In this document: in pieces, positions 17,303 through 53,486 of the stretch | Layout of the letters: the number at the start of each line of letters is the position of its first letter | How positions within the stretch are numbered: position 1 is the first letter of the stretch | Assembly (NCBI RefSeq): GCF_005049285.1 | Contig: NZ_SOSC01000003.1 | Span: forward strand, 124,001 to 188,000 | Direction of reading: 5' to 3' | Length of the DNA stretch: 64,000 bases | Origin: Halorientalis salina | GTDB lineage: Archaea > Halobacteriota > Halobacteria > Halobacteriales > Haloarculaceae | Notes under the pieces: model-generated | What the model was told of the DNA's origin: nothing | The model's input: the letters and a program-made list of their open reading frames with translations, nothing else | Database searches by the model: none | Made by a program: the position numbers and the translations under genes

Positions 17303-18051
17303 TTCATCAACACTTCGACGATGTTGCCCGAGCGCATGAGCAACTCCGGAAACTCCTCGCGGAACCGTTCGTCGTCGATGCGGTTCGTCGGCCCGTAAAT
17401 CGCCAGCGACCCCCGGATACGTTCCTTGCGGTCGATCACCGGGGCGGCGATCGATCGCATGCCCGTCAGTCGCTCCTCGTCGTCGAGCGCGTAGTTGTGT
17501 TCGCGGATCCACTCCAGTTCGTCGGCCAGTTCGTCGCGGTCGGTGATCGTGTTCTCGGTCCGCTCGACCAGCCCGTGCTTGTCGATGATGTCGGACACCC
17601 TGTCGTCGTCGAGGTACGCGAGTATCGCCTTCCCCGGTGCCGCAGTGTGCATGTGCATCACGATCCCGTTGTAGATGTTGACCGGGATGGCTTCCGTCCC
17701 TTCCTCGGTGGCGATGATCACTGCTTTCCCGTGTTCCTCGACCGTGAGGCTGGCGTGTTCGCCCGTTTCGGCCGCCAGCCGTTCGAGTTCGTCGCTCGCA
17801 GCCTGGTATATCTCCGTGTTACGACGGTTGATGTCCCCCATCCGGAGGAAGTCCGAACTGATGTGGTATTTCTCGCCTCGCTGCACCAGATACCCGAGTT
17901 CGTACAGGGTCACCACATGATCGTACACCGTGCTCTTCGGCCGATCCATCGCGGCAGTCAGCTCAGAGACCCCCGCTCCATCCCGATCCGCGATCGTCTC
18001 GATGATCTCGAAGGACGTCCGCAGGGAGTTGATGGGTAGGTCACGTGACAT
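17293..18051 (-). CDS. IclR-family transcriptional regulator
   Basis: 252 residues: N-terminal winged helix (about 5-65, with GVSELTAAMDRPKSTVYDHV as recognition helix region) and a C-terminal effector-binding domain (about 75-250) with the family pattern MHMHTAAPGKAILAYL and GMRSIAAPVIDRKERIRGSLAIYGP. IclR proteins usually sense aromatic or acid catabolites and control neighbouring catabolic operons. It closes the catabolic island and is convergent with it; the palindrome at 6182 is a candidate site. Confidence 0.93.
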   Translation of the reverse strand: MSRDLPINSLRTSFEIIETIADRDGAGVSELTAAMDRPKSTVYDHVVTLYELGYLVQRGEKYHISSDFLRMGDINRRNTEIYQAASDELERLAAETGEHASLTVEEHGKAVIIATEEGTEAIPVNIYNGIVMHMHTAAPGKAILAYLDDDRVSDIIDKHGLVERTENTITDRDELADELEWIREHNYALDDEERLTGMRSIAAPVIDRKERIRGSLAIYGPTNRIDDERFREEFPELLMRSGNIVEVLMNYD

Positions 18052-19296
18052 ACGTGAACATGAATCTCCAGGAACGAAAAGTTTCCGGCATCACCGGACA
18101 CACCCTCGAAGTTCCGGAGATACCGCCAGAGGACGAAAGTAAACAGAGATTCGAAGAATATCCGTTTATTTCTGCAAACATCGTTAGCAGGACACAGTCT
18201 CGGTACATGTTGACACACACCATCTAAAGAGCAGCCATCCGGCAGTACCAAACGCAGACCGATACGGCACTGGAAGCCTATATCGGCCAGTTTCGGCGTT
18301 TACCCGGGTTCTCGTCAGAATGCACTGGGAAAAGTACATATCATATCTCAGTATAATATTCCATTATCTACCCAAAAATTGCATCTCACGTAGTTTCACG
18401 CCGATATCCTATATTCTGACTTCTGATATTTCAGGGGCGGCATTACCGGACAGCGATCTACTCGCGTACAGCGCACCAAAATAACACCAGTACGTTTGTT
18501 AGAGAGATCGGAGGGAGCCGTTCGTCAGATCTCGGTCACCCGGTCGTACTCGTCGGCCAGGGCCGCGGCGTCCTCGGGGAGGAGTGCGACGAGAAGATAC
18601 CGTCGACCTCACTCGACAGCGGTCGCAGTCCGCCCTGGCCGTGGCCGCTGCGAGTCCCTGACGATCGAACTTGTAGGCGGTGAACGGGGGCTCACGTGAT
18701 CGTCCCCGGACGTCGGCCACCGCTGCTCCATCCCCGATCCGATCGGATTCAGGTCGGATTCGTCTGCGAGGCCGGCGACCTCGGTCCGCCTTCCACCCGA
18801 ACTGCCCCCATCGCCCTCGAAATTTACCCTGCACGGAACACTGAGATCAGCCACAGTACAAGTCGCGATCTCCGTACCCGCTCGTGATAGTGTTTGGAGA
18901 AGCTTCCCGAGACGACTAGAATAACACAAATACCATCGTTATTCTGTCGGCAATCTGTTCTGACAGCCCTTCGCTAGAGGTATTTTAGAAGAGAATATAG
19001 GTTTTTGATTCTATAAATTGCTCATAAACACCGATAGTAGCCAAAAGTAGATCTAAATAAAGATATTAGTAGTATAATAGCCACAAGTAGCGCATCAGTA
19101 TACGTAATTTAGCAAATTTTAGTTATAAGCTATGTTATCTACTTCTATCTATCGTCATCCGAGTTCGAATCTTCACGGCCAACCAGCAACACGCCAGAAC
19201 ACAGATGTTCGGAACTCGTTTTCGAATCCGGAGTTCGAATCAGAGAACGAGCCATATGGAAACGCTTTTGCGAAGATAAGACCCAGTATTCGCCCA
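18052..19296. other. 1.2-kb gene-poor, AT-rich decayed region
   Basis: No convincing complete gene. Short open frames here lack family features and codon bias. A GC-rich patch at 18520-18610 reads on the minus strand as RYLLVALLPEDAAALADEYDRV followed by TEI and a stop at 18523-18525, an acidic haloarchaeal-looking C-terminus with an in-frame stop just upstream: probably the last remnant of a lost gene. 18930-19130 is very AT-rich and contains two imperfect direct copies (15 of 17) of an ATA-TAGCC-A-AAGTAG sequence at 19034 and 19074. Confidence 0.6.
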
Positions 19297-19626
19297 ATGA
19301 CAGAGAAAACGGAGCCAGACGAAGACACAGTCGCCGTATCAATGGAGATATCGGGCAAATACGATGACGTAATAGCGAAGTTGCAATCCGGTGGGTCCAG
19401 ACGGCCGGGTATCGAGCCCTTCGTCGATGATCTGGCGGTCCTCTTGGACACGGTCGTCGAGATGGGCGGTGGCACGCGAAGCGCGATCGCCCAGCAGTTG
19501 CCCTCGGACATGGCCGCCTCCTACGATGCCCAAGCGGTCGTCGATACACTACAGGTGCTCGAACGCTACGACCTGGTCGTCCTCGAAGGGAATACCTGGA
19601 AACCGGGCCCGAAGCTAGAGGAGTAG
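19297..19626 (+). CDS. Conserved haloarchaeal hypothetical protein, winged-helix-like
   Basis: 109 residues beginning MTEKTEPDEDTVAVSMEIS. The C-terminal two thirds (LAVLLDTVVEMGGGTRSAIAQQLP ... VVDTLQVLERYDLVVLEGNTW) looks like a winged helix: helix, turn, helix, then a strand pair ending in a wing. I do not recognise a named family. The ATG at 19297 is preferred over an upstream in-frame ATG at 19132 because the extra 55 residues are basic and low in acidic residues, unlike real proteins here. A DNA-binding or partner role next to the toxin-antitoxin relic is an inference. Confidence 0.65.
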   Translation: MTEKTEPDEDTVAVSMEISGKYDDVIAKLQSGGSRRPGIEPFVDDLAVLLDTVVEMGGGTRSAIAQQLPSDMAASYDAQAVVDTLQVLERYDLVVLEGNTWKPGPKLEE

Positions 19627-19706
19627 CCGAATCCCCGGATGGGACGACGACTGTCGACGATTCAGGAGAGTCGCTCGTCCCACACGCGCACAATGCAGCG
19701 CAGTGT

Positions 19707-19720
19707 ATGGGCCCTGGCGG
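19707..19720 (+). repeat. Left att-like copy of tRNA-Met 3' end
   Basis: The 14 bases atgggccctggcgg are identical to 20683-20696, the last bases of the tRNA-Met gene (minus strand, discriminator to T-arm). This is the arrangement left by integration into a tRNA 3' end: the enclosed 976 bp hold the RHH/RelE pair. No integrase gene is present inside, so the element is a remnant. Confidence 0.6.
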
Positions 19721-19941
19721 GGACATCCAGAGTTTTTACGACTGTCAGCCAGTTGTTGAGTGGTGCTTGACGCGTTAATACCGCTGCTTTTGAGCCGGTA
19801 TTCTAGAGAGATCCACATATCGATATCTGCGAACCCTCCGAGATGAGGACGTTTCTTCATCGTAACTGATACAAATCTGATAAGAGTGTTTCGACTGAAC
19901 GAAGGCAAACACTCTTTGCCACCAGTCTGTAATACAAGCGT

Positions 19942-20214
19942 ATGTCGAATACGGATACATCTAGCGGCGATCCGGAGAAAACGAATATCAATATCCGCCT
20001 GACGGAGACGTTCCTCGAAGACATCGACGCGACGTGGCAAGACGAAGGCTACAACAGCCGCAGCGAGTTCATACGGGAAGCCTTGCGTGACGCGGTTCGG
20101 CACCCGGACCTGACCCGCGAGAGCTGGAAAGAAATCGCAGCCGTCGAGCACGCGCGACGGACGGGCGAGAGCGAGACGTTCTCCCGCGAGGAAATTCTCG
20201 GCGACGATGAGTGA
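19942..20214 (+). CDS. Ribbon-helix-helix antitoxin (CopG/Arc-like)
   Basis: 90 residues. N-terminal strand TNINIRLTETFLEDIDATWQDEG followed by YNSRSEFIREALRDAV is the classic RHH DNA-binding fold; the C-terminal EIAAVEHARRTGESETFSREEIL would wrap the toxin. Overlaps the downstream RelE-like frame by 8 bp, as in type II toxin-antitoxin operons, and would autoregulate its promoter. It appears intact although the toxin is not. Confidence 0.88.
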   Translation: MSNTDTSSGDPEKTNINIRLTETFLEDIDATWQDEGYNSRSEFIREALRDAVRHPDLTRESWKEIAAVEHARRTGESETFSREEILGDDE

Positions 20215-20491
20215 CGACGAGTGGACCTGGCAGTTCCGCAAGCCCGCCAAGCAGACCTACGACGATCTCGACGACCACGCCCAAGACCGAATCACTGACA
20301 AGCTGGATGAGATCGTAAACGACCAGTGGCGAGACCCTGGTGACTACCTCGAACCGCTGACCGGTGCGCCACACTCGAAACTCCGTATCGGGCAGTTCCG
20401 ACTCGCTGCCGACTGCAATCACGCCGAGTAGATACTGGATATCTATAGTATTGAGCATCGTAGAGGCGCGTACAAGGCAGACGACGACTGA
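20207..20491 (+). pseudogene. RelE/ParE-family toxin interrupted by an in-frame TAG
   Basis: The frame starts MSDDEWTWQFRKPAKQTYDDLDDHAQ, the N-terminal helix pair of RelE-fold mRNA interferases, and reaches LRIGQFRLAAD, the central sheet. It then meets TAG at 20429-20431 (codon 75). Directly after it, in the same frame, follow ILDIYSIEHRRGAYK and a stop at 20489-20491, which is the normal C-terminal strand and catalytic-tail region. One base change (for example CAG to TAG) explains the loss, so the toxin is probably inactive. Stop readthrough is the less likely alternative. Confidence 0.82.
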
Positions 20492-20682
20492 CAGGAAACC
20501 GGTAGCAATCGGCGATAGTTTTCATACACGCGCTGTGTCGGTTACCAGTGAAGGCACGAAGGCAGCGACTCGCATCCACGCGCTGGATGAACTCTGGACA
20601 AGCCAGGATACCATCAAGAGATGGAAAAGAAATATGCTGGCAACGTCGCTAGCTGGCGATTTGAAAATATGAATGTTCTTCC

Positions 20683-20696
20683 ATGGGCCCTGGCGG
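20683..20696 (-). repeat. Right att-like site inside tRNA-Met
   Basis: Partner of the copy at 19707-19720. It spans the tRNA discriminator base, the acceptor 3' strand and the start of the T-arm, the part that integrases commonly use as attB. Confidence 0.6.
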
Positions 20697-20790
20697 ATTT
20701 GAACCACCGACCGCCCGGTGTCCCACAACACTGACGCGAGTCAGCAGTTGATATGAGCCGGGTGCTCTCACCAGACTAAGCTAAGGGCCC
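20684..20790 (-). tRNA. tRNA-Met(CAT), elongator type, with 32-nt intron
   Basis: Acceptor stem GGGCCCT pairs with AGGGCCC and discriminator A; T-arm GGTGG-TTCAAAT-CCGCC. Anticodon CAT at 20753-20755. Removing 32 nt (20720-20751) after the base 3' of the anticodon restores a CCCGG/CCGGG anticodon stem, the standard archaeal bulge-helix-bulge intron position. The acceptor stem differs from initiator tRNAs, so this is elongator tRNA-Met, which is known to carry an intron in other haloarchaea. Mature length 75 nt. Confidence 0.92.
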
Positions 20791-20855
20791 TTATTTACCG
20801 GATCTATTATCTGGGTTCTTTAGGCTATCGGGATTGCACTCATCTCCCAAATTTT

Positions 20856-21733
20856 CTATAGCAAACCGCTAGATCTCAATTCACTTTGAAGTTCGTCAGT
20901 ATCGCTGATTACCAGGAAGTCCATATTTTGTTTATCTATATATTCCAGCTTCTCTTCGAAATTTTTTGCGTTTGGACGTGAGCCTGGAAGATACCCATCT
21001 ACCTCTATCCAGAGGGGGATGTCAGACAATAGGAAATCGCTCGTCCAAGGCGTTCCCTCTATTTCTGGATGGACCGTATAGTTTATATTGTGGTCATACA
21101 GAAACCGAGCAACCTTCAGTTCGAGTTTGCTATCTAATTCTCTCCAGTTGGGCCTTCACAATCGTGTCCATGTTTCTTTCCGGGGCTGATCCCGGCAGCG
21201 TTACATGCCTGTTTCCACGAATCGAATAGTACCTTCACCGTGCTTGTTGCATACTCGCCGTGCCTTCTATACGCACGGGTTGTAAGACGGTCAGATGGTA
21301 GTTTGTTGACGACACGACGCATATCCCTGCAAATTTCTGGTTTATCTTCGGGGCCGTACTTGTGGACTTGCAATTTCCCCTCGCTCAGACCCGCGTCCTC
21401 CAGAACTCCAAGCCAACCGTCATCACCAGCCATTGAATATAGGGTCGCCAAGGACGGGAGGCTGTCCGCTTGTTGAGCCTCACGTGTTGTCGGAGATTTT
21501 TCGAGTTTTTCAGCAAGGGCTTGTGTGTCAGCAATTAGATCTGAGTAGGTGTAGTCTCCGAGATCGTATCCCGTATGCTGATTACCGTGAAACTCGCCCA
21601 TAGTCCAGTTACCCTGGCTATCTCGTTTAAACCTCGGAACAGTAGCCCCATTGACAGTGTGATCTGCAGGCTTACGTGAATACCCTATGCTATCAGCTAC
21701 CGATTGATTAGATATGGTCAAATGATAGAACAA
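20856..21733 (-). pseudogene. HNR-repeat / Vsr-like PD-(D/E)XK nuclease, frameshifted
   Basis: The first part (21733-21134) contains two homing-endonuclease-associated repeats: SPTTREAQQ ... LATLYSMAGDDGWLGVLEDAGL and TTRAYRRHGEYATSTVKVLFDSWKQACNAAGI. It stops at 21134. One base out of frame, from about 21150 down to the stop at 20856, the sequence continues WRELDSKLELKVARFLYDH, then GTPWTSDFLL and WIEVDGYLPGSRP: a restriction-fold nuclease domain resembling Vsr, with D...E-x-D catalytic spacing. A single-base deletion near 21146-21152 explains the break. Low GC and position between two tRNA genes suggest horizontal arrival. Programmed frameshifting is possible but unsupported. Confidence 0.78.
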
Positions 21734-21764
21734 ACCATAGCCGAAAGTTTCTCAGTAAAAGTCA

Positions 21765-21869
21765 CGCCACCGCCAGGGTTCGAACCTGGGACAACCACGT
21801 ATCTGCGGCGAACAGGGGATTCCTATTCACCGTAACAGCGTGGTGCTCTACCAACTGAGCTACGGCGGC
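21765..21869 (-). tRNA. tRNA-Asn(GTT) with 32-nt intron
   Basis: Acceptor stem GCCGCCG pairs with CGGTGGC (one G-T), discriminator G; T-arm CCAGG-TTCGAAC-CCTGG; D-arm GCTC...GAGC. Anticodon GTT at 21834-21836. Excising 32 nt (21801-21832) after position 37 restores a CCACG/CGTGG anticodon stem, giving a 73-nt tRNA. Intron position is canonical for archaeal splicing endonuclease. The gene lies 98 bp from the divergent cca gene. Confidence 0.92.
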
Positions 21870-21969
21870 CCGTTTGTCTGCATTCCACGATAGCTCAGGT
21901 GATTTGAAAGGGCTTTCGTTTTCGACGCGCATCGACACGCTTTCACGCGGTCACCGGAAACCGACGCGT

Positions 21970-23334
21970 ATGAGCGACGAGTTCGCAGCCGTCGTCGATC
22001 GCGTCCGCGAGCGCGTCACGCCCGACGACGAGGAACGAGCGAGACTCCGCGAGGCGACCGACCGACTCGTCGAGCGCACCGAGACCGCAGTCGATGCTCT
22101 CCCCGTCGACGGCGACGTGCTTCTGGTCGGCAGTACCGCCCGCGGGACCTGGCTGGCCGGCGACCGCGACGTCGACATGTTCGTCCGGTTTCCCGCCGAC
22201 CTCGACCGCGAGCAACTGGAGACGTACGGCCTCGACATCGGCCGCGAGGTCCTGCCCGAGGGGCACCAGGAGTACGCCGAACACCCCTACACGGTGGGAG
22301 AGTTCGAGGGGTTCGCCGTCGATCTGGTTCCCTGCTACGACGTCGAGGACGCGACAGCGATCCAGTCAGCCGTCGACCGCACGCCGTTCCACACCGAGTA
22401 CCTCGAAACGCGGCTAACCGACGACGTCGCCGGCGAGGTCCGCGTCTGCAAGGCGTTCCTGAAAGGGATCGGCGTCTACGGGAGTGACCTGAAAACACGC
22501 GGGTTCTCGGGCTATCTCACCGAGTTGCTCGTCCTCGAATACGGTGGCTTCCGTGCGTTCGTCGACGCCGCCGCGGACTGGCACCCACCGGTCGAACTCG
22601 ACCCGGAAGACCACGGGGTCCAGTCCTTTTCGGACCCGCTGGTCGTCATCGACCCGACGGACCCCGAACGCAACGTCGCCGCCGCGCTCTCGCCGGCCAA
22701 CGTGGCCCGACTCCAACACTACGCCCGGGATCTGCTGGCCGACCCTCGGGAAGACCTGTTCGAACCCGACGACCCCGATCCGTTGTCCCCCGACGGGGTC
22801 CGCACGGCCCTGCAGGACAGGGGGACGACGCCGGTCGCGATCCGGTTCGAGACGCCCGACATCGTCGAAGACCAGCTGTGGCCCCAACTTGAAAAGTCCC
22901 TCGACGGCGTCACGGGCGAACTCGACCGACGTGGGTTCGACGTGTTCCGCGCGGAGGCGTTCGCCGACATCGAGTCGGCCGACGAGGCCGTGCTGTTCGC
23001 CGAACTCGCCGTCACCGAGCGACCGCGGGTCGAACGCCACGAGGGACCGCCGGTTCACGTCCGCGACCACGCGACCGGCTTTTTCGAGAAGTACGCCGAT
23101 ACGGAGGCCTACGGGCCGTTCGTCGACGGCGACCGCTACGTCGTCGAGCGCGAGCGGGCGTTCACGACCGCCCGAGAATTCCTCGAAAGCGACGCGCTCT
23201 TCGACGTGGCACTGGGCGCACACGTCGAGACGGCGCTCGGCGACGGGTACGAGGTACTGGTCGGTGACGATATCACGGCACTCTGCCCCGCGTTCGGGGG
23301 CGAACTCGCGCGTTACGTCTCGCCGAAGCCCTGA
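21970..23334 (+). CDS. cca: CCA tRNA nucleotidyltransferase (archaeal, class I)
   Basis: Adds or repairs the 3' CCA of tRNAs. 454 residues, normal for archaeal class I enzymes. Nucleotidyltransferase motif LLVGSTARGTWLAGDRDVDMFVRF with the two catalytic aspartates in DVD; FEGFAVDLVPCY carries the third carboxylate; KAFLKGIGVYGSD is the central domain. ATG at 21970 gives the expected start. Both neighbouring tRNAs lack an encoded CCA, consistent with need for this enzyme. Confidence 0.95.
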   Translation: MSDEFAAVVDRVRERVTPDDEERARLREATDRLVERTETAVDALPVDGDVLLVGSTARGTWLAGDRDVDMFVRFPADLDREQLETYGLDIGREVLPEGHQEYAEHPYTVGEFEGFAVDLVPCYDVEDATAIQSAVDRTPFHTEYLETRLTDDVAGEVRVCKAFLKGIGVYGSDLKTRGFSGYLTELLVLEYGGFRAFVDAAADWHPPVELDPEDHGVQSFSDPLVVIDPTDPERNVAAALSPANVARLQHYARDLLADPREDLFEPDDPDPLSPDGVRTALQDRGTTPVAIRFETPDIVEDQLWPQLEKSLDGVTGELDRRGFDVFRAEAFADIESADEAVLFAELAVTERPRVERHEGPPVHVRDHATGFFEKYADTEAYGPFVDGDRYVVERERAFTTAREFLESDALFDVALGAHVETALGDGYEVLVGDDITALCPAFGGELARYVSPKP

Positions 23335-31613: not shown

Positions 31614-32348
31614 TTTCCTCCGTGGGAGTCTCAGCCGGTCTACGAGTCCCCGAAGGCAACATTCCCGTTGTGGTGGACGGTACTCGGGTCTGTGCGCTGT
31701 TCTTTGGGACGGTGAGAGTGTGGTGACTCCGACCAGTCGTGGTCGTCCCACTCGAACCGCACTGGCCGTGCCATCGGCCTGACTGCCTGTTCTGTGTGCC
31801 GTTTGAGGAACGTTTCTGAGGCTGTGAGGTCGGCATTTCCCTCGAACCCACACGGACAGGTGAGTGTGTCCTGATGCCGGGTCGTTCGGTCTCTCGAACC
31901 ACATTGCGGGCACTCCTGGCTGGTCCATGCTTCCGACCGGACTTCCACCGAGATACCGTATTCCTCGGCGGTACAAACCAGGCGCTCGGTGAATTTCCTG
32001 AATGACCAGAAATTGTGGGTCTTGGCGTTGGTTTCGACCGACCAGTGCGTGTCCAACACGTCGATCAAGCCGCCAATATACACTGTATCCACGCCGTCCT
32101 CGTACAGTCTTTCCAGCAGGTCACGACACAGTGCCTCTTGGGCGTGGTCGCGGCGTCGGGTCCGTTTCCGATATAATCGCCGGATACGTTCGCTACTGTA
32201 TCGCCAGTCTTCGAGTTTCGACTGTAACCTGGCGATTTCTCGTGTCGTCTCACGGAAACGGTTGAACAGGTCCCGACCTTCGTACAGGTATTGCTCGCCG
32301 GTCGTGGTGGTACAGGCGACGAGAGTGTTCGCACCAATGTCCAGAGCG

Positions 32349-32402
32349 GTCATCAGACTGCGTCTGATGGGCAACCAGAAATCTCCGATTTCTGGTGACG
32401 GC
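32349..32402. repeat. Double-hairpin unit inserted in tnpB (site 3)
   Basis: Hairpin A: CATCAGAC-tgc-GTCTGATG (32351-32369). Hairpin B: CCAGAAATC-tcc-GATTTCTGG (32375-32395), linked by ggcaa. Removing about 55 bases rejoins the tnpB frame as [11 protein letters not shown]. Hairpin A is shared in core (CAGACTGCGTCTG) with the first unit of the array at 33276. Confidence 0.85.
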
Positions 32403-32690
32403 CGTCTCTGCGGCCAGTGGAGTGCCCCGTGCATTATCAGGAACAGTCACGGGTTGCGAAGCCCTGAACGTGCTATCAGTCTCGTCGTACCACAGGTCCA
32501 ACCGGCCCTGCTTCTCGTAGTTGGGCCAGTTCGGGTCGCCAGCGATTTCAAGCCGGAGACGCCCGGTGTGGTCGTATCTATCTTTCAACTCGCTCCCGAT
32601 CAGTATCTCAAGCCGGGAGCGCTCGCCCCATTCGACGGTGTATGCGTCGTTGCGAATGACGCCTTTGAGTTGGCGTCCATCGTCTTTGTT

Positions 32691-32743
32691 GTCGAGGCGA
32701 ATCTACGATTCGCCGACCATTGGAAATCGGAGATTTCCAAGAC
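32691..32743. repeat. Double-hairpin unit inserted in tnpB (site 2)
   Basis: Hairpin A: GGCGAATC-tac-GATTCGCC (32696-32714). Hairpin B: TTGGAAATC-gga-GATTTCCAA (32720-32740), linker gacca-like. The insert keeps frame but carries a TAG on the tnpB strand. Confidence 0.85.
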
Positions 32744-32958
32744 CACGGAAGCCCGGCGGTTCCGGATGTTCCGTGACTGACGTATTCGACTCATCGTGGT
32801 ACTGGTCCTTCAGGCGGAAGAACCCGCGCCACGCTTCACTGTTTTTGCGTATCACCTGTTGGGCAGTGGACGCACCAAGCACGCCCTTGTACTTGCCTTC
32901 GAGTCGGCCTGTATCGGTGTCCCACACGTCCTCACCCTCAAAGCCGTCCTCGTCGTTG

Positions 32959-33007
32959 TCAAGCAAATCGTAGATTTGCGTACATCGCGGAGCTTTGCTC
33001 CGCTCAG
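32959..33007. repeat. Double-hairpin unit inserted in tnpB (site 1)
   Basis: Hairpin A: GCAAATC-gta-GATTTGC (32963-32979). Hairpin B: GCGGAGC-ttt-GCTCCGC (32987-33003), linker gtacatc. The 49-bp insert introduces a TGA after RLMRY and shifts frame by one. Confidence 0.85.
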
Positions 33008-33269
33008 TACCGCATGAGGCGCTGGTACGTGACTTGGTTCCAGAGCGCGGCAGAAGCGTCCAACAGGTCCCGTAGCAGTTGCTCTCCGGTATTTGAGAGT
33101 GGTCGCACGGCGAACGTGTTGGTACGCTTCATGGCCCACTGTTACATCCAATCCGTCTTGTAATAAAGTACAGCTAACCACAGTGAAAGTAGAACTCGCG
33201 GCGAGTGGTAGAAACTCACGACCAGCAGTAACGGGGGGGTTTTCACTGGAGCGGACGCGATCCACACCC

Positions 33270-33541
33270 GTTCGCCAGACTGCGTCTGTCGGGCAGCCAG
33301 AATCCGGCGGATTCTGGGAACGTCCCCAGAACGCTCCGCGTTCTGGTGTGCGAACGAGACGCTTCGCGTCTCGTCAACGTCCCCAGAAATCTCCGATTAC
33401 TGGTGTCTCGGAAACCGGGGATTTCTGACGTCGAAGGGAATGTGTAGATTCCCTGCCCATTGAAAAACTTCACTTTTCAAGAAGTCCGCAGGAGCGGCAG
33501 CTCCTGAGAGATGCGAATGAGAGCTTCGCTCTCGTCAACGC
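33270..33541. repeat. Tandem array of five double-hairpin units
   Basis: Ten successive hairpins of 5-9 bp stem: 33276-33288, 33297-33317, 33326-33346, 33354-33374, 33383-33403, 33408-33428, 33435-33454, 33460-33480, 33489-33506, 33519-33533. Eight have 3-base loops. Units are separated by short gtc-containing junctions (33322, 33379, 33430, 33484, 33540), a period of 51-57 bp. Stem sequences differ between units but pairing is kept. Lies between the tnpB element and mptD. No coding sequence is evident in 33133-33692. Confidence 0.85.
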
Positions 33542-52403: not shown

Positions 52404-53267
52404 ATGCTCCGGCTGGCGGTCGCGACCGACGCCGAGACCTACGAGCGCATGCAGGCCCCCCTGGCCGAACGGGACATCGACGCCGAGCACGTCAGGACCG
52501 ACGAACGGACAGTCCCACTCGGCGACCCCGGCGAGGAGTGGGACGGGTTCGACGCGGGGTTCGTCTATCCCTCTCGTCTCATGGAGGGCGGGGTCGCCGA
52601 CGCCCTGCTCGACGTGCCGTGGGTCAACGACCGCGAGGCGATCCTGACGTCCCGGAACAAAGCGGGCGTCATCGCCGAACTTTCCCAGGAAGGAATTTCG
52701 GTCCCCGAAACCGTCGTGGTCTCGAACCCGGTCGACCAGGCCGACCTCGTCGATGCCTTCGAGCGGTTCGATCCGCCGGTGGTCGTCAAACCCAACTCGG
52801 CGACCCGCGGGGTCGGCGTCGCGAAGGCTACCGACCTCGATTCCTTCCTGGGCATCGTCGATTATCTCGACCTGGTCCACGACTACCGGGCTACCGGCGA
52901 CCAGTCGTTCCTCGTCCAGGAGTACCTGCCGGATGCACGGGACTATCGCGTGATGGTGGTCGACGGGGAGTACGTCGGGGCCGTCGAGCGGCGACTCCCC
53001 GCCGACGCGCTCGCTGCCGGCCAGTGGAAACACAACGTCCATCGCGGTGCCGAGGCGACCGGGGTGGACCTGCCCCAGGAGTTGCGTGCGGTGGCCGAGC
53101 GGACGGCCGAAACGCTGGACATCCCGTGGCTGGGCGTGGACCTGCTCGTGACCGGCGACCGGGTCGTGGTCAACGAGACGAACGCCCGGCCGACCATCGA
53201 CGAGGAGACGAAGTACGAACCCGGGTTCTGGGACGACGTGGCGGCGTTGATTCGAAAGACGGCATAG
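52404..53267 (+). CDS. RimK-type ATP-grasp protein
   Basis: 287 residues. ATP-grasp core: PVVVKPNSATRGVGVAKATDLDSFL (ATP-binding lysine and glycine-rich loop), FLVQEYLPDARDYRVMVVDGEYVGAV, and metal site GVDLLVTGDRVVVNETNARP. Members ligate an amino acid or peptide to an acceptor carboxylate; the acceptor is unknown. The 3' end (DEETKYEPGFWDDVAALIRKTA) is duplicated just downstream. Confidence 0.9.
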   Translation: MLRLAVATDAETYERMQAPLAERDIDAEHVRTDERTVPLGDPGEEWDGFDAGFVYPSRLMEGGVADALLDVPWVNDREAILTSRNKAGVIAELSQEGISVPETVVVSNPVDQADLVDAFERFDPPVVVKPNSATRGVGVAKATDLDSFLGIVDYLDLVHDYRATGDQSFLVQEYLPDARDYRVMVVDGEYVGAVERRLPADALAAGQWKHNVHRGAEATGVDLPQELRAVAERTAETLDIPWLGVDLLVTGDRVVVNETNARPTIDEETKYEPGFWDDVAALIRKTA

Positions 53268-53275
53268 TGTGAGGT

Positions 53276-53308
53276 CCGGGCGCGACCACAGGGAGCGCCC
53301 GGTTTTTT
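53276..53308 (+). terminator. Strong stem-loop terminator
   Basis: CCGGGCGC and GCGCCCGG (8 bp) flank an 11-base loop, followed by TTTTTT. Lies 9 bp after the ATP-grasp stop. Perfect stem plus T6 is a clear intrinsic-type terminator. Confidence 0.85.
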
Positions 53309-53310
53309 CG

Positions 53311-53418
53311 CCCACGTTTTTGCGCGAGGGTGACAAGCGAAGAGAGAGCTTCGCTCTCACAGGAAGCCGGCGCGACGCGCCGGCGACGAAGCGCGTCACC
53401 CGAGCGGAAAAAGGTGGG
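53311..53418. mobile_element. 108-bp terminal-inverted-repeat element with internal double hairpin
   Basis: The 24-bp ends cccacgtttttgcgcgaggg and its continuation tgac (53311-53334) match the reverse complement of 53395-53418 at about 20 of 24 positions. Inside is GAGAGC-ttc-GCTCTC (53344-53358) then GCCGGCGC-gac-GCGCCGGC (53366-53384), the same double-hairpin design as at 33.3 kb; the first hairpin is identical to the last one in that array. No gene inside: MITE-like. Confidence 0.72.
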
Positions 53419-53420
53419 AT

Positions 53421-53486
53421 GACGAGACGAAGTACGAACCCGGGTTCTGGGACGACGTGGCAGGGTTGATCCGGCGGACCGTGTAG
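53421..53486 (+). repeat. Duplicate of the 3' end of the ATP-grasp gene
   Basis: 53424-53461 repeats 53205-53242 of the ATP-grasp gene (38 identical bases), then diverges but still encodes DVAGLIRRTV and a stop (53484-53486). The intervening 150 bp holds the terminator and the terminal-inverted-repeat element. One reading: the downstream copy is the old gene end and the module arrived with a new one. Confidence 0.85.

Follow-up and report, generated by a model that had tools for sequence, protein, structure and literature searches.

Integrative elements whose attachment sites lie in the 3' ends of genes or tRNAs restore the gene end on one side and leave a remnant of it on the other. Among small haloarchaeal repeats, SMR-A of Haloquadratum walsbyi is presented, in the available part of its description, as a family of small mobile repeats that make no target duplication (Dyall-Smith et al. 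2011, PMC3119063). For the IS1549/IS1634 group, an emerging family related to IS4, the accessible text reports repeats of 8 to 514 bp and gives no mechanistic model for them (PMC2266710). A study of terminators in Haloferax records, in the portion consulted, that T5C stops 95% of transcripts in a reporter (PMC7237163). Here, we compare these systems with an element that lies behind a RimK-like gene in the window (the whole 64,000-nucleotide stretch of Halorientalis salina DNA that was analyzed). About a third of the analyzed copies of this element lie between two host-gene 3' ends, with the gene left whole.

The focal element and its surroundings

The initial annotation described a MITE-like element with defined ends, in which a 24-bp imperfect terminal inverted repeat encloses two hairpins. 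Direct reading bears out the repeat (20 of 24 positions match), and both inner hairpins lie where they had been placed (Table 1). What had been missed is the duplicated 3' end of the host gene on the far side of the element, which is 84% identical to the left copy over 69 bp, with at least 36 identical bases in one run. The gene adjoining the element has its top protein match in Halorientalis marina (83%), and the C-termini at the left and right gene ends differ (IRKTA and IRRTV). The layout of a GC-rich hairpin and T-tract behind the gene recurs at other copies of the element, and the sequence that follows the focal remnant resembles the short, uninterrupted intergenic region of Halorientalis relatives (L065 to L067). 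At 107 bp, against the usual 48 to 74 bp, the focal core is an elongated form, which we read as a shorter hairpin whose loop holds additional hairpins; a similar inner hairpin pair occurs inside another own-genome copy (C20:113393-113478).

TABLE 1 Features of the focal locus, in window coordinates
Feature	Position	Strand	Basis
RimK-like ATP-grasp protein gene (intact host gene, 287 aa)	52404-53267	+	ORF list; Pfam RimK PF08443, 7e-24
Host-gene 3' end, left copy of the duplication (D1)	53199-53267	+	Direct repeat with 53418-53486
GC-rich hairpin CCGGGCGC/GCGCCCGG and TTTTTT, terminator-like, directly 3' of the RimK-like gene	53276-53308	+	Sequence reading
Left motif TTTTTCGCCCACGTTTTT, conserved	53304-53321	+	38 own-genome copies at no more than 1 mismatch; reversed control 0
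Element core CCCACG-T5 ... A5-GGTGG, single long imperfect hairpin	53311-53417	+	Right end recognized at 160/162 sites; inner stem covariation
Left terminal repeat CCCACGTTTTTGCGCGAGGGTGAC	53311-53334	+	Exact match to degenerate 24-mer
Right terminal repeat CCCACCTTTTTCCGCTCGGGTGAC	53395-53418	minus	Exact match to degenerate 24-mer
Inner stem GGGTGAC (53328-53334)/GTCACCC (53395-53401)	53328-53401	+	Reading and folding
Two extra loop hairpins	53344-53384	+	Sequence; similar pair in another own-genome copy
Loop hairpin 1, GAGAGC-ttc-GCTCTC	53344-53358		
Loop hairpin 2, GCCGGCGC-gac-GCGCCGGC	53366-53384		
Right end AAAAAGGTGG; minus-strand reading is a CCACC-T5C terminator-like tract	53408-53417	+	
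Remnant: duplicated 3' end of the RimK-like gene, TAG at its end	53418-53486	+	

The first loop hairpin had also been taken to tie the element to a 33-kb array of hairpins. The 15-bp hairpin is indeed identical to positions 33519 to 33533 in that array, but we reject the kinship, because this palindrome is the only part that the two share, the array, by our reading, lacks the element ends, and the 15-mer has nine exact copies in the genome (none in the reversed control), set among several kinds of unrelated hairpin. The GAGAGC loop hairpin is itself a generic palindrome. By reading, the array sits upstream of a putative IS1341/TnpB-type frame, which lies on the minus strand within 31801 to 33540 and is interrupted by several short palindromes; the hairpin run upstream of it (33180 to 33540) includes GAGAGCttcGCTCTC, and similar runs are seen at L021 to L023. 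Elsewhere in the window, positions 18001 to 22000 form an island of low G+C content (0.52, against about 0.65 around it) that was possibly acquired recently.

Dispersal and hairpin structure of the family

The element is present in multiple, dispersed copies in all eight genus genomes. Searching with the entire element gave 49 matches at an E value of 10 or below, of which about 20 fell under 0.1; the two element ends tended to turn up as pairs. For the outer left motif TTTTTSGYCCASVTTTTT, allowing one mismatch at most, the own genome yields 38 copies and its reversed control none, and each of the eight genus genomes yields 12 to 38 copies (control 0). Exact matches were obtained in 226 of the 391 class genomes and in 66 of 86 genera, against one match in the reversed control. 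Dispersal of the family, as proposed in the initial annotation, thus extends from the own genome to the genus and the class, and a genome search for the 24-bp ends, using a degenerate 24-mer that is present at both ends of the focal element, likewise finds ends that recur genome-wide. The analysis below covers 162 unique sites with sufficient flank, compared with 212 copies counted in the genus; some of the 162 may stem from fetched flanks outside that count, and two genomes (G006 and G007) are undersampled.

The right end was recognized at 160 of the 162 sites. Cores, measured from CCCAC to GGTGG, are mostly 48 to 74 bp long and reach 93 to 157 bp in 16 copies, the focal one among them, by our reading because of extra hairpins inside. 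At four loci (L024, L177, L227, and L252), a similar second palindromic insert lies inside the element hairpin, a double hairpin with GAGAGC/GCTCTC-like and CCAGAA/TTCTGG arms, as if small palindromes invade the element. Homogenization of the element arms by species is weak (0.576 within versus 0.558 between species; 0 of 300 permutations).

The copies share one covarying hairpin, and T5 tracts lie on both of its strands. CCAC-x-T5 pairs with A5-x-GTGG and encloses an inner stem, the inner four base pairs of which were evaluated in the 100 cores, out of 113, that have recognizable arms. Standard pairs occupy 363 of 400 cells, whereas 500 shuffled re-pairings gave 180 on average and 213 at most. 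Since the stem is mostly paired despite 38 distinct stem sequences among the 100 cores, the hairpin is kept while its sequence changes. Of the 162 left motifs, 121 contain T5C, and the right ends, read on the minus strand, carry T5C in 103 of 160 and T5 in 151 of 160 cases. A T5 tract behind a stop codon together with a hairpin are features of intrinsic (T-tract) terminators, and the element has both. On the strength of the T5C tracts, the hairpin, and the position behind genes, we predict that the element is a small, dispersed, two-way transcription terminator. A search of 10 loci against Rfam returned no match up to an E value of 1.

Two arrangements at gene ends and their possible origin

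At 51 of the 162 sites, an intact gene lies upstream of the element, and the 3' end of this gene is repeated downstream of the element. Such a duplication was called where the upstream and downstream sequences aligned with a score of at least 18, a threshold reached by 3 of 484 mismatched pairs and by none of 162 reverse-complement pairs. Upstream, the repeated stretch normally forms the 3' terminus of a long ORF. The remnant starts between -2 and +9 bp from GGTGG in 44 of the 51 cases, with 0 to 9 extra bases between GGTGG and the homology; its length varies from roughly 20 to 110 bp (mostly 22 to 106 bp), and in many pairs the similarity ends at the stop codon. By reading, one extra base about 3 nucleotides past GGTGG shifts the starting frame of the remnant at L204, L178, L257, L012, and L089. 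One duplication is of a tRNA: at L145, 22 bp of a tRNA-Arg 3' end lie on the far side of the element. Units can stand in tandem (e.g., three units at L209, and also L289), and the right-most remnant often continues into unrelated native sequence without a second element. At guaA of G004 (L228), the remnant appears to be cut off by another insertion sequence.

Copies in which no duplication was detected are placed differently. In 60 of 108 cases, an inward-reading reverse-strand ORF has its stop codon no more than 12 bp from the right end of the element, compared with 40 of 2,310 random positions in the same loci and none of 50 duplication copies; the two arrangements are mutually exclusive. 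By reading, several of the stop-adjacent genes recur between species, presumably including thermosome-like and DnaK-like genes, to judge from their C-terminal sequences.

The same gene is found with and without the element in different species. Among 80 orthologs of the focal gene, for which the next 500 to 600 bp were scanned, the element and a duplicated gene end are present in one, from Halomicroarcula rubra (L089), and there the junction lies at a different point of the gene than in the focal copy. At argF, six of the eight genus genomes have the element and two (G002 and G007) are without it. The ends of nuoI, etfA, pheT, argF, guaA, and a methyltransferase-like gene, as we take them to be from their protein sequences, are occupied repeatedly and with differing junctions.

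The two gene ends differ in the manner of coding sequences. Their mismatches fall 15, 12, and 52 times on codon positions 1, 2, and 3 (third position, 52 of 79), the changed codons comprise 46 synonymous and 23 nonsynonymous ones, and the aligned stop codon is kept in 35 of 42 remnants. This count rests on 42 ungapped pairs, a few of which come from tandem arrays and are nested or truncated; seven gapped alignments were excluded, one each from L001 (the focal locus), L003, L011, L043, L169, L205, and L216, while other pairs of L003 and L169 were retained. Binomial probabilities for the third-position bias are 3.7e-9 against one-third and 1.5e-4 against an assumed 0.45, with the pairs not fully independent. 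Because a dead remnant would gather changes at all positions, the remnant either diverged as coding sequence or is renewed from such sequence, and the codon-position bias disfavors simple neutral decay of a target duplication. The left and right C-termini can also differ, as in KLLASP and KLVS at L245.

Some remnants match the allele of another species. argF of G004 has the order A-E1-B-E2-A', in which A, B, and A' are gene ends and E1 and E2 are elements; remnant B differs at 1 of 55 positions from the G005 gene, at 1 of 55 from that of G006, and at 7 of 55 from its own gene A, and the hairpin of E2, which follows B, is also present at argF of G005. At guaA, the G004 remnant is nearer to the G005 gene end, and the right-most G005 remnant is nearer to that of G004. 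Cross-species exchange concerns a minority, since just 4 of the 35 remnants examined have their closest gene end in another genome and 31 have it in their own.

We tentatively favor, at somewhat less than even confidence, an insertion that brings a long, variable target duplication, with later recombination between the copies. The element would enter the 3' end of a gene by an insertion that duplicates a long and variable gene-end stretch; the two gene ends could then serve as homology arms, through which units composed of a gene end and an element may multiply in tandem, be lost, or pass between strains and occasionally species. Through such exchange the remnant would go on evolving as coding sequence, and the T5C of an element behind the gene would end the gene's transcript. 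This reading accounts for the empty sites, intact genes, tandem units, coding-like remnants, and occasional foreign alleles; a plain long target duplication does not predict remnants with a third-position bias, and exchange alone does not account for the first event. Counting against it are the small share of remnants closer to a foreign gene end, the loss of similarity at the stop codon in many pairs, which would not be expected if duplications were placed at random, and the extra bases, in several cases one inserted base, between GGTGG and the homology. A possible but rather doubtful reading dispenses with a transposase altogether: a mobile terminator carrying its own homology arms, in the form of a copied host-gene 3' end, would be moved by ordinary homologous recombination into the same gene of other strains or species, the gene would never be broken, its native end would be displaced as the remnant, and units would stack in tandem. 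The sharpest rival, which we nonetheless consider improbable, also needs no transposition. In it, DNA with a resident terminator and its gene 3' end recombines, by homology on the left, into a related gene that lacks the element, the right end, protected by its hairpin (GGTGG and a few further bases), joins illegitimately inside the recipient gene end, and the recipient's own gene end survives as the remnant. The synonymous-type divergence, the differing C-termini at L245 and the focal locus, the position of the junction mostly at the hairpin foot with a few extra bases, and the allele patterns of G004 and G005 at argF and guaA agree with such one-sided recombination, but most remnants are nearest to the gene end of their own genome, and the tRNA 3'-end copy is left unaccounted for.

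That the element is a nonautonomous, MITE-like DNA transposon with unusually long, variable target duplications and decaying remnants seems unlikely to us. The terminal repeats, the defined right end, the duplications, the dispersal, and the empty sites would suit it, as would the long repeats reported, in the part of the literature available, for IS1549/IS1634 (PMC2266710). However, the IS1634 transposase model had no match over the cutoff in any of the eight genus genomes (weak matches in four, and none in the own genome), which disfavors an IS1634-type enzyme; no longer element with these ends exists among the 162 sites, 160 of which reach their right end in about 160 bp or less; and the remnant differences are biased toward the third position rather than decay-like. 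Of the original proposal, the defined right end stands, but the element is not an ordinary MITE: the target-site duplications are not of fixed length, gene-end duplications of variable length taking their place, neither the IS1634 model in the genus genomes nor the analyzed sites yielded a matching transposase, and many copies occupy fixed positions behind genes, as terminators do. Ordinary tandem duplication, by slippage, of a gene end and its resident terminator would produce the tandem units, but it is very improbable, given that the last remnant often runs into unrelated native sequence without a second element and that only one of the 80 orthologs of the focal gene has the element behind it. 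We give hardly any credence to retroposition, in which mRNA 3' ends terminated in the element are copied by a reverse transcriptase; variable-length duplications, extra bases at one junction, and the gene-end location are compatible with it, whereas the reverse transcriptase model RVT_1 (PF00078), which was positive in 3 of 14 control genomes, had no match in the own genome.

Comparison with known systems

If insertion followed by recombination is the true course of events, one widespread haloarchaeal repeat family ties transcription termination to genome mobility, invading gene ends without cost and leaving a duplicated gene end as its footprint. The element may then swap C-termini between strains, would account for the short gene-end remnants behind haloarchaeal genes, and would provide an archaeal case for how elements make long, variable target duplications. 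We found no description of such an element in the open-access papers searched.

Neither SMR-A nor IS1549/IS1634 fits the element. Like SMR-A, it is haloarchaeal, about 110 bp long, and present in many copies with terminal inverted repeats and no known transposase; as far as the available text of the SMR-A report goes, SMR-A targets PATEs and IS605-type elements or palindromes (PMC3119063), whereas our element has duplicated gene ends at about a third of the sites and, in more than half of the remaining copies, a gene-stop position. IS1549/IS1634, too, have long direct repeats of variable length where they insert, but, according to the part of their description that was available (PMC2266710), they are autonomous insertion sequences with a transposase, for which the genus has no match over the cutoff. 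The terminators of Haloferax volcanii resemble the element in their T5C tracts, hairpins, and location behind stop codons, but the accessible part of that study describes no repeat family among them and no duplication of gene ends (PMC7237163). As with integrative elements, the gene end is whole on one side and a remnant is left on the other; our element differs from these in its size of about 60 to 150 bp, in having no integrase, and in that one family uses many unrelated genes. To our knowledge, the repeats of IS1549/IS1634 have no tie to gene 3' ends, which is where the duplications beside our element lie.
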